Source: Bacteroidaceae bacterium (GTDB lineage Bacteria; Bacteroidota; Bacteroidia; Bacteroidales; Bacteroidaceae). From it: a stretch of 37,647 bases of DNA. The notes below the pieces were generated by a model, which did not search any database, was not told the origin of the DNA, and saw only the letters and a list, made by a program, of their open reading frames with translations. Positions 1-18,394 of this stretch are shown in pieces. Location: positions 1 to 37,647 of the forward strand of contig JAFZVY010000069.1 in NCBI GenBank assembly GCA_017617575.1, in the 5' to 3' direction. The position numbers and the translations under genes were made by a program. Position 1 is the stretch's first letter. The number at the start of each line of letters is the position of its first letter.

Positions 1-1298
1 GGACATAATCCTTTTCCTTCAGACACTCTTTGTTTATTTGCTAAAAAAACTTTATTTACACATTTTCCACAAAAATCATTATGAAAACACTCCTTACATT
101 CGTTTCTGTTGCCATTGTCCGCACTAAGATTTATATTTGAAAATGCATAATAAAGAGGATTACTAAAGGAAAGGAAATCAAGTTTTGGATCTACTTTATA
201 GTTGCCCAAGTTCCACTCTGGTTCCATCATGTTACAAGGTTGTACATTTCCATTTGCCTGAAATGACAACATGGTCCATCCAGCTCCACACGAAGGAATT
301 GCATTGGCAATATTTAATCCACTTTCTCCTAAACGATCTGCAATTGTATGAATACGTTTACCAAATTTCTCTCCTATTTGGATGATCTTTTCTTCCAACA
401 CTATTCTTGATTGACTTCTTCTATCACTCATAAGACAACCATCAGACAATTTGTATGTCCTTCCCTTGTCTATGTTTTCTGGAACACTAACCATCAGATC
501 AAGAATATTATGTGATATCATGTATTCAAAGAAATCATCGACTTCATCAGCATTTTCATTTGTAAGCATATACACTATTCGCAAAAACTTTGGATTTAAG
601 ACCTCTTTAATTCGGATAATATTATCCAATGTCTTCTTAAATGTATTACAAACGCCTCTCTGATAACTATTTGTCTTCTCAGAAAAACCATCTATGCTAA
701 TACTGAAACCGATTTTGTCTTTGTACTTTTTATATATTTCCAAGGTCGAAGAACGTAACAAAACGGCATTTGTCATTATCGTAACCATACCAAATCTTTC
801 ACACGCATCACTAAGAATGTAGTCAAAGTCTGGATTAACCGATGGTTCACCACCTGTCAATTCTATTGTTTTAACATTACGTCCAACCAATTCCGCAAAT
901 AATCTCGCAGCTTCTTCTCTACTAAGATAATTGCTTTTGGTTGGTGCAAATGCTCCATAACAATATCTACATTTAAGATTACATTTTTCAGTAATCTCTA
1001 TACTTGCAACACGAATAGGCTGTTTATTTGCCCTAACAAGTTTTTGTGGACTTGATGACAATACCAAGAATCCCAAACTGGACATATTAGTAATGAAATT
1101 CTCAACACAATTACGAGTTGTTTTATAAGAATTCATTATAATATCAATAATTGAATCCATATCAGTTTTGCCATCAATCAGTTCCAAAATTGGATATGCA
1201 CCAGATGGCAATGATATGTGTTTACCTGTTGTAATATCAATTGCAATTTCTGATTGTTTTGATATGATTACATTTGGATTAATTTGTGGATATTTCAT
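1..1298 (-). CDS. Radical SAM/SPASM peptide maturase, 3' end beyond left edge
   Basis: No stop occurs before the window edge, so 432 residues are visible and the C-terminus is missing. Residues 1 to about 90 resemble a PqqD-like precursor-recognition domain: a conserved-looking SGAYPILELIDGKT stretch near 32-45, then helices ending in a 'M..LGFL' pattern. The radical SAM 4Fe-4S motif CNLKCRYC supplies C106, C110 and C113, followed by ELTGGEP. The SPASM domain is seen as C337-X12-G-X4-C355, then C401-X2-C404-X5-C410-X2-C413 and C432, which should bind two auxiliary Fe-S clusters. Enzymes with this layout make carbon-centred crosslinks such as thioethers in ribosomal peptides. The start at 1298 is the first ATG after the hairpin at 1313-1345 and sits in an A-rich context. 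The Cys-rich peptide gene at 1362-1529 lies 63 bp upstream on the same strand and is the probable substrate. Radical SAM/SPASM assignment is firm; the exact reaction is inferred. Confidence 0.93.
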   Translation of the reverse strand, partial: MKYPQINPNVIISKQSEIAIDITTGKHISLPSGAYPILELIDGKTDMDSIIDIIMNSYKTTRNCVENFITNMSSLGFLVLSSSPQKLVRANKQPIRVASIEITEKCNLKCRYCYGAFAPTKSNYLSREEAARLFAELVGRNVKTIELTGGEPSVNPDFDYILSDACERFGMVTIMTNAVLLRSSTLEIYKKYKDKIGFSISIDGFSEKTNSYQRGVCNTFKKTLDNIIRIKEVLNPKFLRIVYMLTNENADEVDDFFEYMISHNILDLMVSVPENIDKGRTYKLSDGCLMSDRRSQSRIVLEEKIIQIGEKFGKRIHTIADRLGESGLNIANAIPSCGAGWTMLSFQANGNVQPCNMMEPEWNLGNYKVDPKLDFLSFSNPLYYAFSNINLSADNGNRNECKECFHNDFCGKCVNKVFLANKQRVSEGKGLC

Positions 1299-1312
1299 TT
1301 TTTTTGAATTAT

Positions 1313-1345
1313 TTTCAATGGGTATGTATTACATACCCATTGAAA
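1313..1345 (-). promoter_or_regulatory. Intercistronic 16-bp perfect hairpin between peptide and maturase genes
   Basis: Positions 1313-1328 and 1330-1345 are perfect reverse complements with a single central base. The hairpin fills about half of the 63-bp gap between the precursor stop and the maturase start. No T-tract follows on the minus strand, so it looks more like an attenuator or an mRNA-stabilising stem than a full terminator. Such an element would leave more precursor than enzyme, which is usual in peptide maturation operons. The pairing is seen directly; the role is inferred. Confidence 0.8.
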
Positions 1346-1361
1346 TGAATAGATTCTTTTT

Positions 1362-1529
1362 TTAGAATGATGCAAAAGCAGAAACTCCAGCCCAAGCAGC
1401 TACAGTTGCACCGCAAGCTGCACAAAGACCACATGCTGCACACCAGGCGCTCTGTTCTGCTACCTGCTGCATTTCTACTGCACGAAATGTTGTTGTTCCC
1501 ATTGAACCTAAATCTAATTGCTGTTCCAT
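1362..1529 (-). CDS. Cys-rich RiPP precursor, candidate thurincin-like sactipeptide (55 aa)
   Basis: This 55-codon frame begins with an ATG in an AAAA-rich context and ends 63 bp before the radical SAM gene. Residues 1-27 form a polar leader (MEQQLDLGSMGTTTFRAVEM and a few more). The core begins around residue 28: W29 C30 A A C33 G L C36 A A C39, then a small/hydrophobic segment to F55. The cysteines are spaced every third residue. A45, G48, A51 and S54 are small and sit +6, +12, +18 and +24 from C39, C36, C33 and C30. Bulky W46, V49, F52 and F55 alternate with them. Thurincin H from Bacillus has the same four-Cys spacing and the same acceptor offsets. It is not a GG-type Bacteroidales precursor. 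The frame and context are seen; the thioether pattern is inferred. No dedicated promoter is obvious, and 141 bp separate it from the upstream DUF3244-like gene, so co-transcription is possible. Confidence 0.85.
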   Translation of the reverse strand: MEQQLDLGSMGTTTFRAVEMQQVAEQSAWCAACGLCAACGATVAAWAGVSAFASF

Positions 1530-1670
1530 TTTTAATTGTTTTTAAATTGTTAAATTCATTTTCTTTTCTCTTTATCCGATAAGAGTAAAAACGCCTTTGG
1601 GCAGTATGGTCTGCACATATATAAATAACCGGTTAAATTTATGTCTTACTTAAAGCAATCCTAACACATT

Positions 1671-2093
1671 TTACATATCAAAATATGCATAGTATTCCAC
1701 ACCATTGATTGTGACATTCAATGTATAATACCCAGATGAAAGAAAACTAATATCTATCATATTGGGACTGTCTGCAAAAACATCAATAATTGATGAGCTA
1801 ATGTTTTCACCATCTTCATTAAAGATAGAGACCTCAACATCATAAATTTCTTCATCATTATTAAAATACAAATAACCATCTGCCAACCATGCATCGACTG
1901 GTGACGGTACAAAACGCGGTATAAGACTCTTAGGATTAATAGGACTACTTGGAATACCTTTTTTTACAAGGATAATGGGATTACCCTCCAATTCGGTAGT
2001 ATTGTCCAATATTTTCGCACTTACTGTTGTGACAGAAGCAAAACCTACAAATAGTACAACTGATAAAAAGAATTTGTTCATTTGATTATTCAA
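1671..2093 (-). CDS. Secreted DUF3244-like small protein
   Basis: The 140-residue product has a Sec signal peptide (K7 followed by a hydrophobic run, likely cleavage after A26). The mature part of about 114 residues is mostly beta-strand. Its second half, from about residue 68, looks like a small immunoglobulin-like fold of the DUF3244 type: 'DGYLYF', a 'YDVEVSIFN.DGE' strand pair, and an 'SSGYYTLNVTINGVEYYAYF' ending. The start could also be M5 (2081), giving MNKFFLSVVLF. A TACCTTTG promoter element lies at 2126-2133. The gene is first in a possible operon with the Cys-rich peptide and the maturase, and it is divergent from the TPR regulator. DUF3244 proteins have no established function. 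A role as sensor, immunity factor or unrelated neighbour cannot be told apart here. Family assignment is moderately confident. Confidence 0.8.
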   Translation of the reverse strand: MNNQMNKFFLSVVLFVGFASVTTVSAKILDNTTELEGNPIILVKKGIPSSPINPKSLIPRFVPSPVDAWLADGYLYFNNDEEIYDVEVSIFNEDGENISSSIIDVFADSPNMIDISFLSSGYYTLNVTINGVEYYAYFDM

Positions 2094-2125
2094 TTAATTT
2101 TAACTTTTTCTTGCTTAATGCGGTG

Positions 2126-2133
2126 CAAAGGTA
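2126..2133 (-). promoter_or_regulatory. Bacteroidetes -7 promoter element for the DUF3244-like/RiPP genes
   Basis: The minus strand reads TACCTTTG followed by CACCGC, matching the TAnnTTTG consensus used by Bacteroidetes sigma-ABfr. Transcription should start about 7 bp downstream, leaving a short leader before the ATG at 2093. The phased repeat array at 2165-2236 begins about 32 bp upstream, where an activator would sit. Confidence 0.7.
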
Positions 2134-2164
2134 TCATGTCTGTTTTAATTGGCCATGAAAAAAA

Positions 2165-2236
2165 TGTACCAATACGTAACCATCTTGTACCTATATGTCC
2201 CCCCACTTGTAACCACTTTGTAACCTCTATGTAACC
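2165..2236 (-). repeat. Seven-unit ~11-bp phased repeat array (GGTTACAA-type), operator-like
   Basis: On the + strand GTAACC or a variant starts at 2166, 2176, 2187, 2197 (degenerate, GTCC), 2209, 2220 and 2231. The spacings are 10, 11, 10, 12, 11 and 11 bp, so each unit falls on the same face of the helix. On the minus strand the unit consensus is about GGTTACAAAGT. The array is immediately upstream of the minus-strand promoter at 2126-2133 and about 150 bp from the regulator promoter at 2389. It should therefore mainly serve the RiPP side. Repeats are seen directly; operator function is inferred. The rest of 2094-2424 holds only the two divergent promoters and AT-rich DNA. Confidence 0.75.
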
Positions 2237-2388: not shown

Positions 2389-2396
2389 TAACTTTG
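2389..2396 (+). promoter_or_regulatory. -7 promoter element of the TPR regulator
   Basis: TAACTTTG followed by CA matches TAnnTTTG exactly and lies 29 bp before the ATG at 2425. No clear TTTG -33 element is seen at the usual distance. Confidence 0.6.
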
Positions 2397-2424
2397 CAGC
2401 CAAATTATAACAATTAACACGACT

Positions 2425-4074
2425 ATGCGCTCAAAAATTACTCTTTTTTTATTAACCATTATCATTACTCTTTGTTCTTGTACTGAACATCATGAAGAAA
2501 AGTATAACAAAATTAACGCATTAATGGAAACTAATCCTCGAAAAGGATTGGATGAAGTTCTGTTAATGATAAAACAGAACAAAAAAAATAGTCAATATAC
2601 AAAGATGAAACTTGCCTTGTTGAAGTATAAGGGCGAGGATAAATGCGACACTATACATACTACCGATTCTATAATCAAACCTATTTATGAATACTTCATA
2701 GATAAAGGTAGTAACGGAGAAAAACTTGAGGTCAACTATTATATGGGCAGAACATATACTGATATGCATAAATATCCGTTAGCAATTACATACTATAATA
2801 AAGCCATAGAAATTGGTAATACTACTCAAATATCAAGAACAGATTCCATGGTTCTTGCTAATGTATATTCTCAGTTATCTGGACTTTCTGCCATTATTTC
2901 TGACAATAAAAATCGTGTCAAACAATCATATAAGGCTTTAGAAATTCGTCAAAAATTAGGCATAGATGATGTTTCTTCGTATGCACCATTGGCAACAGCA
3001 TATAATTTTGCAGGGAAAACAGATAGTGCAACATTGTTACACAAACAATGTGTACTTAAAATATCATATAAAAGTAATATTAATGACTACATGCTATATC
3101 TTGCAGAAGAACTGGATTTCTTCTGTGTTCATGACGAAATGCAGATGGCAGAATGGACTCTTAATCTTGCCAAGTCAATAAACAAAGATTCCATTCCACC
3201 TCTTTTGAATTATTCGATTTCTTCATATTACGCTTTTGTGCATTACAATAAAGACTCTTGCTTGTATTACGCCCAAAAGGCTTATGACAAAGAGAATGAT
3301 CTGAAAAATAAAGCAAACTATGCTCAACGTATTGCAACAATATATGCAATGGACAAAGATTACAAAACTGCATTTAATTATGCCTATAGCTATTTTCTTT
3401 TAGAAGATTCTATAAGAAATCTTGAAAGTATAGATGCAACTATCTCTGCTCAGAATTCATACCATACTCAGCTTATAGAAAAGACAAAAATTGAATTAGA
3501 AAATGAACAATCAAAAATAAGAGAATATATTGCATACGGAATAACGGCACTTATGACATTACTATCATTTTTTTCAGTAAGCTTGTACTTGCACGGAAAG
3601 AAAGAAAAGAAATATCTTGCCGACATAGAGGAACTGGAGGCTGCAAAGTCGGAGATAGAAGAAAAGCATCATAATCTCGCAGAGATAGTGGAGGCGGACA
3701 ACCGACTCAGAGCTGAAAGCGCAAAGGATTTGGCATCAATAGTGACACGACTGAAGGCAATAAGCTATGACCCAAAAGAATGTTTAACAGAAGACATGTG
3801 GGAAGACGTGTTTCTTGCCGTGGATAAATTACATCCAAATCTTAGAAGCCATATTCTATCATACTACAAAGGTATAGACAACAAAGATTTAATCCTAATA
3901 TATCTTACGGTACTCGGCATGAATCAGTCAGATGCTGCAAGACTATTCAAGAATGCACGATCTGTAACAAATAGAAAATTCTTACGTCTTAACACTCGAT
4001 TAGGACTTCCTCTTAATGATGTCTTAAAAGAATATGAAGACAAATACGAAGAATCAATTATACATAAATCATAA
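2425..4074 (+). CDS. Membrane-anchored TPR regulator with C-terminal helix-turn-helix
   Basis: 549 residues. The N-terminus is a lipoprotein-like signal (hydrophobic run ending LCSC, C19). TPR-type helical repeats fill roughly residues 75-340, for example 'YYMGRTYTDMHKYPLAITYYNKAIEI'. One transmembrane helix follows at about 365-390 (YIAYGITALMTLLSFFSVSL), then a charged coiled coil (about 395-440) and a C-terminal domain with a helix-turn-helix-like segment (about 490-530, GMNQSDAARLFKNARSVTNR). This layout is common in Bacteroidales as an envelope sensor with a cytoplasmic output domain. The paralogous protein at 26529-28256 has the same order and nearly the same TM position. The gene is divergent from the DUF3244/peptide/maturase genes, so it is the best candidate for their regulator. 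The ligand is unknown. Domain order is seen; DNA binding is inferred. Confidence 0.85.
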   Translation: MRSKITLFLLTIIITLCSCTEHHEEKYNKINALMETNPRKGLDEVLLMIKQNKKNSQYTKMKLALLKYKGEDKCDTIHTTDSIIKPIYEYFIDKGSNGEKLEVNYYMGRTYTDMHKYPLAITYYNKAIEIGNTTQISRTDSMVLANVYSQLSGLSAIISDNKNRVKQSYKALEIRQKLGIDDVSSYAPLATAYNFAGKTDSATLLHKQCVLKISYKSNINDYMLYLAEELDFFCVHDEMQMAEWTLNLAKSINKDSIPPLLNYSISSYYAFVHYNKDSCLYYAQKAYDKENDLKNKANYAQRIATIYAMDKDYKTAFNYAYSYFLLEDSIRNLESIDATISAQNSYHTQLIEKTKIELENEQSKIREYIAYGITALMTLLSFFSVSLYLHGKKEKKYLADIEELEAAKSEIEEKHHNLAEIVEADNRLRAESAKDLASIVTRLKAISYDPKECLTEDMWEDVFLAVDKLHPNLRSHILSYYKGIDNKDLILIYLTVLGMNQSDAARLFKNARSVTNRKFLRLNTRLGLPLNDVLKEYEDKYEESIIHKS

Positions 4075-4410: not shown

Positions 4411-4465
4411 ATAAAGGAAGAAATGACACTTTTAGCAAGGATACCATAATTACGTAAAAAATACG

Positions 4466-4601
4466 CTATACATCCGTTTTGATTCCGTTGTGCCTCCGCT
4501 ATTTCTCTACTATTTCTCCGCTATTCTCCGCTAAATAGCGGAGGCATAGCGAAGTCACTACGGACTCATAGCGGAGTCATGACGTATTCATAACGTTTGT
4601 A
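4466..4601. repeat. About twelve 11-bp units arranged as an inverted array (CTCCGCTAT / ATAGCGGAG)
   Basis: The first half repeats in strict 11-bp steps from 4466 (CTATACATCCG, TTTTGATTCCG, TTGTGCCTCCG, CTATTTCTCTA, CTATTTCTCCG, then a 10-bp unit). The second half carries the complementary motif in 11-bp steps: TAGCGGAGGCA at 4536, TAGCGAAGTCA at 4547, CTACGGACTCA at 4558, TAGCGGAGTCA at 4569, TGACGTATTCA at 4580 and TAACGTTTGTA at 4591. Positions 4491-4504 and 4533-4546 form a perfect 14-bp inverted repeat. Confidence 0.85.
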
Positions 4602-4609
4602 AATGGGAT

Positions 4610-4708
4610 TTCCCTTACCTTCCCCTTAGGTGTGCCTTAGGTTTCCCTTAGTTTTGTAAGGGAAACAAAGGAGAACCTAAGGGAAACCTAAGGTACACCT
4701 AACACGAA
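4610..4708. repeat. Nine 11-bp units forming a 26-bp inverted repeat (CCTTAGG family)
   Basis: Left units in exact 11-bp register are TTCCCTTACCT (4610), TCCCCTTAGGT (4621), GTGCCTTAGGT (4632) and TTCCCTTAGTT (4643). The register continues through 4654 and 4665 into CCTAAGGGAAA (4676), CCTAAGGTACA (4687) and CCTAACACGAA (4698). Positions 4626-4651 and 4677-4702 are reverse complements with one mismatch. The sequence family differs from the preceding array but the unit length is the same. Confidence 0.85.
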
Positions 4709-4730
4709 AGCTATTCATGTTTCATGTCTC

Positions 4731-4840
4731 TCAGACTATTGATAGTTTGCGAACTGACTATCAATAGTCTGCTATACGAACTATCAATAGCTTGCGGTAC
4801 AGACTATCGATAGTCTGAGAAGCGGCATCTGATAGTCGCT
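4731..4840. repeat. Five ~22-bp palindromic units (GACTATcgATAGTC family)
   Basis: Units begin at about 4731, 4753, 4775, 4797 and 4819, each with an ACTAT-NN-ATAGT dyad or a decayed form. Positions 4732-4746 and 4757-4771 form a perfect 15-bp inverted repeat. Positions 4800-4817 are a perfect 18-bp palindrome. The array ends about 50 bp before the promoter of the membrane protein at 4927. Confidence 0.8.
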
Positions 4841-4890
4841 CCGACAATGCCTTTTCCTTGTATTTATTTTGTTCTTATTCACTTATATCG

Positions 4891-13906: not shown

Positions 13907-16900
13907 TCATTCTTGAATCTCTTGAATCTTTTGTTTCAACTTTGCTATTTTCTCTTCTTCAAGCACACGCTTGTATTCTATAGGAACGACCTGAATGAAC
14001 TCCTCGACGTAGTGGTTCCAGTTGTCCAGCATACGTCCTGCAAGAGCAGAACCTGTATAGAGGTAATGCTTGCGGATGAGTTCCTTGAGTTCCTTACGGT
14101 AGGATGCTTCCTCCACGAGGTTAATCTCTACCATGTCCATGTTACAGAAGTAGTCAAAGTTGTGATTCTTGTCCCATACATAAGCTACGCCACCGCTCAT
14201 ACCAGCAGCGAAGTTACGTCCTGTCTCTCCGAGGACTACCACACGTCCACCTGTCATGTACTCGCAGCAGTGGTCGCCTGCACCTTCGATGACGGCTGTG
14301 GCACCAGAGTTACGGACACCGAAACGCTCACCTACACGTCCGTTGACATAAAGCTCACCAGTTGTGGCACCATAGAGTCCTGTGTTACCTGCAATGATGT
14401 TGTCCTCTGCCACGAACTCCTCGTTGCAGCGTGCAGGAGGAAGGATGGAGATGCGTCCACCTGAGAGTCCCTTGCCGAAGTAGTCGTTACACTCACCCTC
14501 AAGCTTCATGTTCACACCGCTTACGGCAAATGCACCGAATGACTGACCTGCAGAACCCTTGAACTTGATGTTGATTGTTCCGTCAGGGAGACCTGCCTCG
14601 CCATACTTGCGGGCGATTACACCTGAAAGCATTGTACCTACGGCACGGTCAGTATTCTTGATAGCGTAGTCGAGGTTCACCTCTTCGCCAAACTCAAGTG
14701 CTGCCTGTGAAGCCTTGATGATATCGTCGTCCTTGACTGTTGGTATCTTTGTGAATGAGCCACGGTCCCAGTAGAGTGGCTTGTCAGTCTCTGGCTTGTG
14801 GAGAAGGCGGCTGAAGTCGATTGTAGCCCACTTCTCGTTGCTATAGTTAGCGTACTTCTCGCCCTCTTTCACGATAAGGTCTGTGCGACCGATAATCTCC
14901 TTGAGGCTGCGAACGCCCATCTCGCTGAGATATTCCCTTACCTGCTCTGCAAGGAATGTGAAGAAGTTGACCACGTACTCAGCCTTACCAGTGAAGCGTT
15001 CACGAAGCTTGGCATCCTGTGTGGCAACACCTACAGGACAGGTATTGGTGTTACACTTACGCATCATCACACATCCGAGTACGATGAGTGGGAGTGTACC
15101 GAATGAGAACTCGTCGGCACCGAGCATAGCCATGAGGACTACATCCTTGGCAGTCTTTATCTGACCGTCGGTCTGGAGGCGCACCTGATTACGGAGACCG
15201 TTCATCACGAGTGTCTGCTGTGTCTCTGCAAGTCCAATCTCTGGAGAGATACCTGCGAAGCGCATTGAGCTTGCAGGGCTTGCACCTGTACCACCCTCAG
15301 CACCTGAGATGACGATGAGGTCAGCCTTAGCCTTGGCAACACCTGCGGCGATAGTACCGACACCACTCTCGGCTACGAGCTTGACGCTCACTGCAGCAGT
15401 AGGGTTGATGTTCTTGAGGTCGAAGATGAGCTGTGCAAGGTCCTCGATAGAGTAGATATCGTGGTGTGGTGGAGGAGAGATGAGCGAGATACCAGGAATG
15501 GCATTACGAGTCTTGGCAATGATGTCGTTGACCTTGAATCCTGGGAGCTGTCCACCTTCACCTGGCTTGGCACCCTGTGCAACCTTAATCTGTATTTCCT
15601 CAGCGTTGACGAGATACTCGGCTGTGACACCGAAACGTCCGCTGGCAATCTGCTTAGTCTTTGAAGAGAGGCTTACGCCGTCCACCTCTGAGTGGTAGCG
15701 TGCGTTGTCCTCACCACCTTCACCTGTGTTGCTTCGTGTGCCAAGCTTGTTCATGGCAAGTGCAAGTGCCTCGTGAGCCTCGATGGAGAGTGCTCCGAAT
15801 GACATGGCACCTGTGACGAAGTGCTTCACGATGCTCTCCACTGGCTCTACCTCCTCAAGCGGAGTAGGTGTGGCTGCCTTCTTGAATCCGAAGAAGTCAC
15901 GGATGAAGATAGGCTTCTCCTTCTCGTCCACCATCTGTGCCCACTCCTTGAACTTCTTGTATGAGCCGAGGCGAGTGGCAATCTGAAGGTTGGCGATGGT
16001 CTCTGGGTTCCAAGCGTGGAGGATACCGTCCTTGCGATAGTTGAAGAGTCCGTTGTTAGGAAGGAACTCGTTAATCTCCTCTGGCTTGAAAGCCTCGTTA
16101 TGTAGCTTGATGGCGTCTGAAGCAATCTCCTTGAGGCCGATACCACCAATGGTTGAAATCTCTGTTCCGAAGTATCTCTTGAGGAGGTCTTCGCTGAGTC
16201 CTATGCTCTCGAATATCTTTGCACCGCGGTAAGAGCGGATGGTAGAGATACCCATCTTTGACATAATCTTCTTGAGACCCTTGTCCACTGCCTTGATGTA
16301 GTTCTTCTCGGCAGTAGCATACTCCTCCTGAATCTTGTGGTTCTTCACAAGGTCGTCGAGTACTGCGAATGTCATGTAAGGACAGATCGCGCTGGCTCCA
16401 TAGCCAAGAAGCAAGGCAGCGTGCATTACTTCCCTAATCTCACCACTCTCAACGATGAGTGCAGTCTGGACGCGTTTCTGCACGCTGATGAGATAATGAT
16501 GGACGGCACTGACAGCAAGGAGTGATGGAATGGCTGCATGCTTCTCGTCTATGTCGCGATCTGAAAGGATTATATAATTAACTCCCTCGTCAACTGATTG
16601 CTCTGCCTTCTTGCAGAGAGTGTCGATGGCCTCACGGAGACCGCTGGCACCTTTCTCAATGTCGAAGAGCATAGGAAGTTTCTCTGTCTTGAATCCCTTG
16701 TAACGGATGTTACAGAGGATGTCGAGCTGTGTGTTGGTAAGGACTGGCTGTGGGAGGCGCACCATCTTGCAGTTACTCTCGTCAGGAGTAAGGATGTTGG
16801 TACCTACCGCACCGATGTACTCTGTGAGTGACATCACGAGTTCCTCACGTATTGGGTCAATGGCAGGGTTGGTTACCTGCGCAAACTGCTGGCGGAAGTA

Positions 16901-18394
16901 GTTGAAGAATATCTGTGGCTTGTCGCTGATGACGGCAAGCGGAGTGTCGTTACCCATTGCTGCGACAGGCTCCTGTCCCTGAGTACACATAGGAACGACG
17001 GTCTTGTCGATGTCCTCCTGTCCGAAGCCGAAGCTGCGGAGCTTGCGCTTGTAGTTTGCAACGGAGTTGTCAACCTTGCGTCCGCTCTTGAGCTTCTCGA
17101 GCTGGATACAGTTGGTTGAAAGCCACTGACGGTAAGGATGCTCGCCTGCGAGCTTCTCCTTTATCTCTCCGTCGTAGTATATCTTGCCTTCCTGAGTGTC
17201 GATGAGGAGAATCTTACCTGGCTGGAGTCGTCCCTTGCTCACTACGTCGCTTGGGTCGAAGTCCATTACGCCCACCTCACTGGCAACTACCATCATGCCG
17301 CTCTTGGTGATGGTGTAGCGTGAAGGGCGGAGACCGTTACGGTCGAGCATACCACCTGCATAGCGACCGTCGCTGAACATGAGTGCAGCTGGTCCGTCCC
17401 ATGGCTCCATGAGGATGGAGTGGTACTCGTAGAATGCCTTGAGGTCTTCGCTGATAGGGTTCTTGTCGTTGAATGACTCTGGCACGAGGATTGCCATAGC
17501 CTGTGGGAGTGAGAGTCCGCTCATGATGAGGAACTCGAACACGTTGTCGAGGCTGGCAGAGTCGCTCATTCCGTCCTGTACGATAGGGCGGATGTCCTTG
17601 ATGTCACCGAGTGTTGGTGATGAGAGGACGCTCTCCCTTGCCTTCATCCAGCCGCGGTTACCACGGATGGTGTTAATCTCACCGTTGTGGCAGAGGAGGC
17701 GGAAAGGCTGTGCCAGCTTCCACTTAGGGAATGTATTAGTAGAGAATCGTGAGTGAACGAGTGCAAGACCACTTGTGAGGTAGTTGCTTGAGAGGTCTGG
17801 GAAGTAACGGCGGAGCTGTCCGCTCGTAAGCATACCCTTATAGATGATGCTCTTGCTGCTGAGTGAGCAGATGTAGAAGTCCTCGTCGTCGATGCGGTTC
17901 TCAATCTTCTTGCGAACCTTGTAGAGGATGCGCTCTATGTCGGCAGCCTTGTCGTCTGTCACGCCATCTATAAAGATTTGCTTGATGTCTGGTTCTACCT
18001 CTCTTGCGCCAACGCCAAGAACCTCTGGGTTGGTTGGCACGGTGCGAAGGTGCATAAGGTTGAGTCCCTCACGCTCTATCTCCTCGATGATGATGCTCAG
18101 AGCCTTGCTCTGGCGCTTCTCGTCCTTTGGGAGGAAGACAAGTCCGGTACCATATCGTCCCTTTTCTGGTACAGGAATGCCCTGAAGAAGAATAAACTCG
18201 TGTGGTATCTGAATCAAGATACCGGCACCGTCACCAGTCTTATCGCGTGTCTCTGCACCACGATGTTCCATGTTCTCGAGCACCTTGAGTGCATTATCCA
18301 CAAGCTCGTGGTTCTTGCCACCGTGGATATTCACCACCATACCTACACCGCAGGCATCGTGCTCGTATTCTTTACTATATAATCCCTTCTGCAT
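13907..18394 (-). CDS. gltB: Glutamate synthase large subunit
   Basis: 1495 residues, normal for the family. The N-terminal class II amidotransferase domain has its catalytic Cys at C15 (ACGVGMV); the first 14 residues would be removed to expose it. The central and FMN-binding synthase domains follow, with the cofactor and 2-oxoglutarate region SGAEGGTGASPASS and the 3Fe-4S ligands in CVMMRKCNTNTCPVG (about 1107-1121). The GXGXG-type C-terminal beta-helix occupies about 1240-1490 (SAGQSFGAFA, GDYF-like repeats). It converts glutamine and 2-oxoglutarate into two glutamates. With GlnN upstream it forms the GS-GOGAT cycle. The 438-bp region upstream carries a potentially structured leader (18461-18550) and a 23-bp repeat array, suggesting dedicated control separate from glnN. 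Confidence 0.97.
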   Translation of the reverse strand: MQKGLYSKEYEHDACGVGMVVNIHGGKNHELVDNALKVLENMEHRGAETRDKTGDGAGILIQIPHEFILLQGIPVPEKGRYGTGLVFLPKDEKRQSKALSIIIEEIEREGLNLMHLRTVPTNPEVLGVGAREVEPDIKQIFIDGVTDDKAADIERILYKVRKKIENRIDDEDFYICSLSSKSIIYKGMLTSGQLRRYFPDLSSNYLTSGLALVHSRFSTNTFPKWKLAQPFRLLCHNGEINTIRGNRGWMKARESVLSSPTLGDIKDIRPIVQDGMSDSASLDNVFEFLIMSGLSLPQAMAILVPESFNDKNPISEDLKAFYEYHSILMEPWDGPAALMFSDGRYAGGMLDRNGLRPSRYTITKSGMMVVASEVGVMDFDPSDVVSKGRLQPGKILLIDTQEGKIYYDGEIKEKLAGEHPYRQWLSTNCIQLEKLKSGRKVDNSVANYKRKLRSFGFGQEDIDKTVVPMCTQGQEPVAAMGNDTPLAVISDKPQIFFNYFRQQFAQVTNPAIDPIREELVMSLTEYIGAVGTNILTPDESNCKMVRLPQPVLTNTQLDILCNIRYKGFKTEKLPMLFDIEKGASGLREAIDTLCKKAEQSVDEGVNYIILSDRDIDEKHAAIPSLLAVSAVHHYLISVQKRVQTALIVESGEIREVMHAALLLGYGASAICPYMTFAVLDDLVKNHKIQEEYATAEKNYIKAVDKGLKKIMSKMGISTIRSYRGAKIFESIGLSEDLLKRYFGTEISTIGGIGLKEIASDAIKLHNEAFKPEEINEFLPNNGLFNYRKDGILHAWNPETIANLQIATRLGSYKKFKEWAQMVDEKEKPIFIRDFFGFKKAATPTPLEEVEPVESIVKHFVTGAMSFGALSIEAHEALALAMNKLGTRSNTGEGGEDNARYHSEVDGVSLSSKTKQIASGRFGVTAEYLVNAEEIQIKVAQGAKPGEGGQLPGFKVNDIIAKTRNAIPGISLISPPPHHDIYSIEDLAQLIFDLKNINPTAAVSVKLVAESGVGTIAAGVAKAKADLIVISGAEGGTGASPASSMRFAGISPEIGLAETQQTLVMNGLRNQVRLQTDGQIKTAKDVVLMAMLGADEFSFGTLPLIVLGCVMMRKCNTNTCPVGVATQDAKLRERFTGKAEYVVNFFTFLAEQVREYLSEMGVRSLKEIIGRTDLIVKEGEKYANYSNEKWATIDFSRLLHKPETDKPLYWDRGSFTKIPTVKDDDIIKASQAALEFGEEVNLDYAIKNTDRAVGTMLSGVIARKYGEAGLPDGTINIKFKGSAGQSFGAFAVSGVNMKLEGECNDYFGKGLSGGRISILPPARCNEEFVAEDNIIAGNTGLYGATTGELYVNGRVGERFGVRNSGATAVIEGAGDHCCEYMTGGRVVVLGETGRNFAAGMSGGVAYVWDKNHNFDYFCNMDMVEINLVEEASYRKELKELIRKHYLYTGSALAGRMLDNWNHYVEEFIQVVPIEYKRVLEEEKIAKLKQKIQEIQE

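Follow-up and report, generated by a model that had tools for sequence, protein, structure and literature searches.

Does a Bacteroidales-type genome encode a sactipeptide of the thurincin kind and, if so, which of the genes around it belong to the system? This question is raised by the left end of contig JAFZVY010000069.1 from a Bacteroidaceae bacterium (assembly GCA_017617575.1), the entire 37,647 nucleotides of which (contig C138 of its assembly) form the window analysed here. A first-pass annotation had described a sactipeptide system made up of a short Cys-rich precursor, a radical S-adenosylmethionine (SAM) maturase with a SPASM domain, a secreted DUF3244-like protein and a divergent regulator. 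In our analysis the precursor and maturase stand as a sactipeptide-type pair, since the precursor carries the cysteine ladder of thurincin H, the best family model of the maturase is AlbA, and the maturase groups with subtilosin-type and ladder-associated maturases. The regulator and the DUF3244 gene need not be members of the system, in view of a relative (locus L060) treated below. We consider it rather probable that the locus is a type I (nested-hairpin) sactipeptide operon, a prediction with good sequence evidence and an unexpected host.

A cysteine-ladder precursor and its adjoining maturase

Read leftwards along the minus strand from position 2081, the genes are a DUF3244-like gene, the 55-residue peptide (open reading frame (ORF) 1362..1529), a stem-loop and the radical SAM/SPASM maturase (3..1298), with a TPR gene divergent to them. 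The peptide ORF and the maturase gene are separated by 63 bases, which agrees with the first-pass description of a Cys-rich peptide directly before the enzyme. The peptide ends in SAWCAACGLCAACGATVAAWAGVSAFASF, and its four Cys (residues 30, 33, 36 and 39; 1413..1442, minus strand) stand in exact CxxCxxCxxC order, the spacing found in thurincin H (Cys 4, 7, 10 and 13). Shuffling the precursor reproduced the ladder in 28 of 200,000 trials, and the motif is present in two of the 439 small six-frame ORFs of the window, namely the precursor and an ORF (17863-17973) antisense to a glutamate synthase gene; on account of the shuffles and of the rarity of the motif in other small ORFs, a chance origin of the ladder was rejected.

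In thurincin H, bridges connect Cys4-Ser28, Cys7-Thr25, Cys10-Thr22 and Cys13-Asn19 (PMC8172795; this and the other papers cited by PMC number were available in part, and statements drawn from them are limited to those parts). The innermost bridge of this geometry spans six residues and each outer one six further. Four nested bridges of the thurincin type require at least 15 residues after the last Cys, and the precursor has 16. Its Cys donors cluster in the N-terminal part of the core and leave space for acceptors C-terminally, as in type I sactipeptides, and the likeliest bridges, if the thurincin H spacing is kept, would be C39-A45, C36-G48, C33-A51 and C30-S54. The predicted core covers residues 28-55 (1365..1448, minus strand) and the predicted leader residues 1-27 (1449..1529, minus strand), a boundary placed with the 8-29 residues of known sactipeptide leaders (PMC8326336) as a guide.

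The maturase has 432 codons and lacks a stop owing to the contig end, but little of the enzyme is probably missing, since its last codon encodes a Cys in keeping with the close of the SPASM pattern. Pfam recognizes Radical_SAM (E 3.9e-24) and SPASM (24 bits; cut-off 21.5), while the PqqD-like front domain, a putative leader-binding (RRE) domain at residues 20-78 (1065..1241, minus strand), is a weak match at 19.6 bits against a cut-off of 23.4. The CX3CX2C radical SAM motif consists of C106, C110 and C113 (960..983, minus strand). The SPASM region (residues 337-432; 3..290, minus strand; the Pfam match spans 337-404) contains, by eye, C337, C355 (after GX4), C401, C404, C410, C413 and C432, and these seven Cys bear out the SPASM spacing claimed at first sight. 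The adjacency of an enzyme with both motifs is again what is found for type I sactipeptides. Among NCBIfam models, the subtilosin maturase AlbA (NF012164) scores best (93.7 bits), followed by StsB (78.9); SkfB reaches 72.0 and the ranthipeptide enzyme PapB 71.6. The best PDB match is SkfB (E 3.4e-16). When nine other radical SAM proteins were scanned, AlbA was the best model for three (L018, 338.6; L035, 140.6; L037, 155.1), the remaining six matching best ScmE (L004, L007), StsB (L009, L038, L045) or the mycofactocin maturase (L044).

Ladder precursors beside related maturases in distant lineages

We scanned radical SAM neighbourhoods, up to 1.6 kb on either side and in six frames, for small ORFs of 25-150 residues. 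An ORF with a C..C..C..C ladder was present in 3 of 28 neighbourhoods, each time just upstream of the enzyme and on the same strand: in the window and at L035 and L037, whose maturases come from another family of the host's phylum. Three of the 28 loci (L018, L031 and L032) are nearly one Enterococcus cluster; subtilosin-type precursors are present in L018 and L032, and L031 starts too near the enzyme to show them. L018 itself is an IMG/VR contig that at this place nearly matches Enterococcus, and it has a Mutator-family transposase (PF00872; 5351-6541) between the precursors and the maturase. Thirty loci from the L035/L037 family yielded the ladder at two places, those of L035 and L037 again. 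A third scan covered 57 loci in full (54 from a viral collection, three from plasmids; 5,409 small ORFs) and found the ladder exclusively in an Anaerococcus peptide, in two overlapping loci.

The arrangements at these places resemble that of the window. At L037 (786-2550; L047, genome G1062) a four-Cys ladder precursor, ECGGCVSCGACPITHIKAGYLLTAFSLSK, with a tail of 18 residues stands directly before an AlbA-like maturase. The L035 peptide has five Cys and a tail of 20 residues, where 18 are required; at L046 (1115-3864, genome G949) a five-Cys ladder precursor with a long leader is followed by an AlbA-like maturase and then by a caspase-fold peptidase (PF00656, E 1.1e-27), which might remove the leader. 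The Anaerococcus relative, retrieved with the L037 and L018 enzymes, lies on plasmid pAPRE01 of Anaerococcus prevotii (L141, 4567-6266), where a 41-residue peptide with a five-Cys CxxC ladder, annotated as hypothetical, ends 212 bases ahead of a radical SAM gene whose best model is also AlbA (101.5 bits). Just upstream of this pair lies a further system, whose annotated putative sactipeptide has no ladder. The pairing of ladder and maturase thus recurs in distant lineages, but in closer relatives of the window's genome it did not turn up. Conservation of the precursor beside homologous maturases, on which the first-pass annotation had made its proposal depend, holds at a distance only (L035, L037 and Anaerococcus); the genome draws described below gave no close relative of the maturase.

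Searches by sequence in plasmids, phages, viral contigs and PDB chains gave no relatives of the precursor, although the BLAST low-complexity filter may hide some. A pattern scan of genome contigs, with two poorly placed patterns, returned 159 stretches and two relatives, both from Enterococcus, and a profile scan of viral contigs returned 43 loci, the best being Enterococcus again and the others partial matches. On the Escherichia coli plasmid CP099011.1 (L142, 2898-4526), a radical SAM gene aligns with 61% of the Enterococcus maturase at 31% identity; a 38-residue ORF with two Cys lies ahead of it, and five more enterobacterial plasmids matched in the same search. At two other radical SAM loci (L038, 2342-2659; L072, 2816-3247) we observed, beside the radical SAM genes, peptides that carry CGIGAGC or CGSAFGC repeats and an RRKFLKYG twin-arginine-like leader.

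Kinship of the maturase and points against a sactipeptide operon

In a 24-row tree the window maturase falls with the Enterococcus pair (L018 and L032, the subtilosin-type cluster), L035 and L037, with support of 97/96. This tree omitted the enzymes of L011, L016, L031, L039, L040 and L041 and included the second enzymes L036b and L044b. A 26-row tree, which gained two enzymes from Anaerococcus and one from an E. coli plasmid and lost L018 as a near-duplicate, joins the enzymes of the window, Enterococcus, L035, L037 and Anaerococcus (L141) at 94/95, the branching within the group being open, and leaves the E. coli and the second Anaerococcus enzyme outside. Support for the group was 96/94 without L035 and 94/97 without L037. 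The maturase of L004, a locus of the Bacteroidales GG-leader kind, belongs to a different part of the tree from that of the window. This position, together with the absence of GG anywhere in the 55 residues, led us to reject a GG-type radical SAM product (a ribosomally synthesized and post-translationally modified peptide, RiPP) of the kind known in Bacteroidales, and the first-pass view that the precursor is unlike such targets was correct.

Several observations weigh against a sactipeptide operon. Every NCBIfam maturase cut-off is missed by far (for AlbA, 93.7 against 850), AlbA leads StsB by merely 15 bits, and the window maturase is 22-31% identical to those of L018, L035 and L037. The five-member group (94/95) lies just under the tool's starred level, its branches are long, the tool warns of a possibly erroneous joining of L035 with L037, and ThnB, SkfB and AlbA itself are absent from the trees. 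The ladder members vary in Cys number (four or five), and the five-Cys Anaerococcus peptide has a tail of 17 residues by eye, one short for five thurincin-type bridges, so that not every one of its Cys can be in the thurincin register. Neither the Enterococcus member nor the enzyme on the E. coli plasmid has a ladder peptide at its locus. In the part of the operon available, which terminates within the maturase, no genes for a transporter, a protease or immunity are visible. Finally, the precursor was found in one of 45 genus genomes (its own), the maturase in its own genome only among 61 relatives at 1e-20, and a four-row maturase profile in one of 395 class genomes (again its own) at 1e-35.

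Among 393 genomes of the order, the maturase was found at 1e-18 in its own genome only; 15 of 399 family genomes matched at 1e-12, including its own, the other 14 at 23-33% identity and mostly over part of the query; and 8 of 345 genomes of the phylum matched at 1e-15, own included. In the L035/L037 family (86 genomes), the maturase matched 4 genomes at 1e-15 and the profile matched 25 at 1e-25. The draws of 61, 399, 393, 345 and 395 genomes overlap, and those of the family, order, phylum and class scored merely four to five candidates per genome, so misses are possible.

TPR/DUF3244 surroundings and expression signals

The gene preceding the pair (1671..2081, minus strand) encodes a secreted DUF3244-like protein, as the first-pass annotation had stated: the Pfam match reaches 27.9 bits (cut-off 25), and the probable ATG start at 2081, in place of the TTG at 2093 given in the ORF list, yields a signal-peptide-like N-terminus. 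The divergent gene (2425..4074, plus strand) had been called a TPR/helix-turn-helix regulator. Its TPR character is retained, albeit with a top score of 29.2 just below the cut-off of 30.1, whereas the helix-turn-helix found no library match, the sole hit being to the BT3442 family, far below cut-off. By eye, the protein has a lipoprotein-like N-terminus, a membrane segment and a possible C-terminal DNA-binding region.

DUF3244 occurs at 18 places in 14 of the 45 genus genomes (own included), and seven of these places (L050, L052, L053, L060, L061, L066 and L067) were inspected. L060 shows the layout of the window, a DUF3244-like gene with a TPR gene divergent to it, and the 3.2 kb covered there contain no radical SAM gene. 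The TPR gene of L060 is homologous to that of the window (26% identity over 377 residues, BLAST E 7e-27). By the same comparison the neighbour gene of L053 is a weak match (E 4e-5) and those of L061 and L067 are not significant. Among the four neighbours picked by eye (L053, L060, L061 and L067), Pfam supports TPR at L060 only, just under cut-off, with a weak DUF6377 match at L061 and none at L053 and L067. L066 and L067 represent one and the same place, L052 is truncated and L050 is a longer protein. A family relative has, at L048 (7221-14491), a DUF3244 protein (59.6 bits) ahead of a cluster comprising a GG-type precursor, a radical SAM gene and a C39 transporter (107 bits); a TPR gene lies about 5 kb further upstream. 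Because L060 repeats the TPR/DUF3244 pair without a radical SAM gene nearby, the pair is probably a more general module able to drive different cargo, a suggestion that comes mainly from this locus. The weakened evidence for such a module leaves the odds of a sactipeptide unchanged, since that interpretation does not rest on the module.

The motif TAnnTTTGC, which we take to be the Bacteroides-type -7 element, occurs 15 times in the window (6.5 expected). One box (TACCTTTGC; 2125..2133, minus strand) stands ahead of the DUF3244 gene and another (TAACTTTGC; 2389..2397, plus strand) ahead of the divergent TPR gene. There is none between the DUF3244 gene and the precursor, and these two genes are therefore likely to share one operon. 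A two-part promoter pattern with a -33 TTG gave 23 matches against 13 expected; the TPR box fits it with one mismatch and the DUF3244 box does not match. Between the precursor stop and the maturase start lies a stem-loop (1308..1350, minus strand) with 21-nt arms that are 90% complementary; for the segment 1299-1365 the folding energy is -21.2 kcal/mol (z -7.3), and none of 200 shuffles was equally stable. As it has no T run, this hairpin is likely to limit read-through, acting as an attenuator, or to protect the precursor transcript.

Alternative products of the locus

The same gene pair could form thioethers to beta or gamma acceptor carbons and thus make a ranthipeptide. The two kinds of peptide have similar radical SAM/SPASM enzymes, the PapB score nearly equals that of SkfB, and gamma-thioethers have been deemed plausible in another Bacteroidales cluster (PMC10352776). 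We nonetheless regard this as unlikely. The two top models, AlbA and StsB, are sactipeptide maturases, the PapB cut-off of 340 is missed, and the SCIFF maturase model is absent from the best 25 of 94 matches. Known ranthipeptides show spaced Cys patterns, unlike the thurincin H-type ladder of the window.

Instead of being a bacteriocin, the product might be linked to the TPR/DUF3244 pair as a signal or self-regulating peptide. A regulator and a secreted DUF3244 protein do flank the peptide gene, and L048 offers a comparable setting with its DUF3244 protein just before a GG-type precursor, radical SAM gene and C39 transporter; the homologous TPR and DUF3244-like genes of L060, which have no such enzyme nearby, make this role quite unlikely.

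That the maturase installs some other modification (for example C-C or C-O bonds, or epimerization), the ladder binding metal or forming disulfides, is in our judgement decidedly unlikely. Radical SAM/SPASM peptide enzymes do catalyse many reactions, and the scores against proven sactisynthases are low, but the strict ladders of the window, L035 and L037, each with a tail that fits the bridges, and the kinship to a subtilosin-type maturase argue otherwise. It is highly improbable that the peptide ORF is not a gene or that the pair is a decayed remnant: although it occurs in its own genome only among the closer kin searched and the contig end truncates the operon, neither frame is interrupted in the sequence available, the ladder is beyond chance and the same arrangement recurs in distant relatives.

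A proposed route to a nested-hairpin sactipeptide

For the sactipeptide operon that we favour, the following route may be envisaged. Expression would probably begin at the DUF3244 promoter, controlled by the TPR regulator, and the hairpin downstream of the precursor gene would ensure that more peptide than enzyme is made. The maturase would bind the precursor leader through its PqqD-like domain, its radical SAM centre would abstract the alpha-hydrogens of the four acceptor residues, and the SPASM clusters would help to couple the four Cys thiols to the acceptor alpha-carbons, so that residues 30-54 fold to a hairpin held by four thioethers. After removal of the leader, the products of genes further along, past the end of the contig, would export the peptide. 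The product would most likely be a narrow-spectrum bacteriocin.

Setting of the locus in the contig

The operon is interrupted at base 1 of the contig, and a search with its first 174 bases found no match elsewhere in the assembly at E 0.001. As for a C39 transporter as the missing part, the sole C39 peptidase-transporter found in the assembly is internal to another contig (C94; L042, 6343-8568). No radical SAM gene was noticed in the 17 kb around it.

The maturase, DUF3244 and TPR genes have a G+C content of about 33%, compared with 47% for the precursor gene and 44.5% for the window as a whole, a contrast that hints at acquisition of the locus without proving it. Elsewhere the contig holds ordinary genes of a Bacteroidota chromosome, among them a response regulator/PglZ protein, presumably of the PorX type, the glutamate synthase (13907-18394) and a type III glutamine synthetase. 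Because the rest of the contig resembles such a chromosome, a contaminating Bacillota contig was judged unlikely. The intergenic region 4430-4850 is, by eye, dense in short direct and inverted repeats, such as ctatcaatagtctg units.

Comparison with known systems

A close parallel is thurincin H of Bacillus thuringiensis with its maturase ThnB: both systems have CxxCxxCxxC donors N-terminal in the core, a tail with room for four bridges and a radical SAM enzyme with a PqqD-like domain, which in the window is a match below the cut-off. The window differs in its Bacteroidota host, a predicted leader of about 27 rather than 9 residues, one precursor copy seen rather than three, predicted acceptors Ala/Gly/Ala/Ser in place of Asn/Thr/Thr/Ser, a TPR/DUF3244 context, and a transporter and protease that are not seen. 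Gnavucin D of Mediterraneibacter gnavus is likewise thurincin-like, from a gut bacterium and predicted to have four bridges, but its host is Gram-positive and it has five tandem precursor genes and a 9-residue leader (PMC13239113).

The subtilosin-type Enterococcus cluster (L018, L032) shares a maturase of the same tree group, 29-31% identical over most of its length; its precursors, unlike the ladder of the window, have three Cys in CxxCx5C spacing. Subtilosin has a cyclic backbone. The Anaerococcus system on pAPRE01 also has a ladder peptide before an AlbA-like maturase, but differs in its Bacillota host, its five Cys and an ABC transporter ATP-binding gene that comes next. Among the Bacteroidales GG-leader RiPPs (PMC10352776; L004 and L048), the L048 cluster has an adjoining DUF3244 protein and a nearby TPR gene; unlike the window, these RiPPs have a GG leader and a C39 transporter and lack a Cys ladder.

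The first-pass annotation placed thurincin-type sactipeptides in Firmicutes and knew of no described example in Bacteroidales. As worded, this is not supported, in that four sactipeptide clusters have been predicted in Bacteroides, although their precursors are of the double-glycine/class II or TIGR04149 kind (PMC4573289). Many radical SAM areas emerged from a survey of 1,136 Bacteroidales genomes, which stressed GG leaders with C39 transporters and called class I bacteriocins elusive in the order (PMC10352776). The accessible text of another lists no sactipeptides for 14 Bacteroidetes strains and one Chlorobi strain (PMC4289311), and a further source gives four sactipeptide clusters, with ranthipeptides largely absent from Bacteroidota (PMC13289728). 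In rumen genomes the vast majority of 2,126 antiSMASH sactipeptide clusters belong to Firmicutes (PMC8241843), and some predicted clusters must thus lie outside that phylum, since this is not all of them. A search for sactipeptide with Chlorobium returned no paper, and the literature searched, which excluded most subscription papers and bioRxiv, describes, in the parts available, no thurincin-like precursor for Bacteroidales.

Conclusions

As a tentative extension, possible rather than probable, CxxC-ladder sactipeptides may form an old lineage of Gram-negative and Gram-positive bacteria, in which AlbA-related maturases accompany nested-ladder precursors not only in Bacteroidales but also in another family of the phylum (green sulfur bacteria by inference) and in anaerobic Bacillota, each with local regulation (here TPR/DUF3244) and leader removal (the caspase-fold peptidase next to L035), the acceptors here being small (Ala, Gly, Ala, Ser). 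One source counts seven known sactipeptides (PMC8326336), with hosts that are Gram-positive by our reading, and another about ten characterized ones (PMC13239113). One 55-residue precursor and one enzyme make a ready test pair, for which a change of -8 Da is predicted. The characterized sactipeptides named in the accessible parts of reviews are from Gram-positive bacteria; one from Bacteroidales would add a type of modified peptide to an abundant gut order and, if true, would raise the question of how such a peptide crosses the outer membrane.

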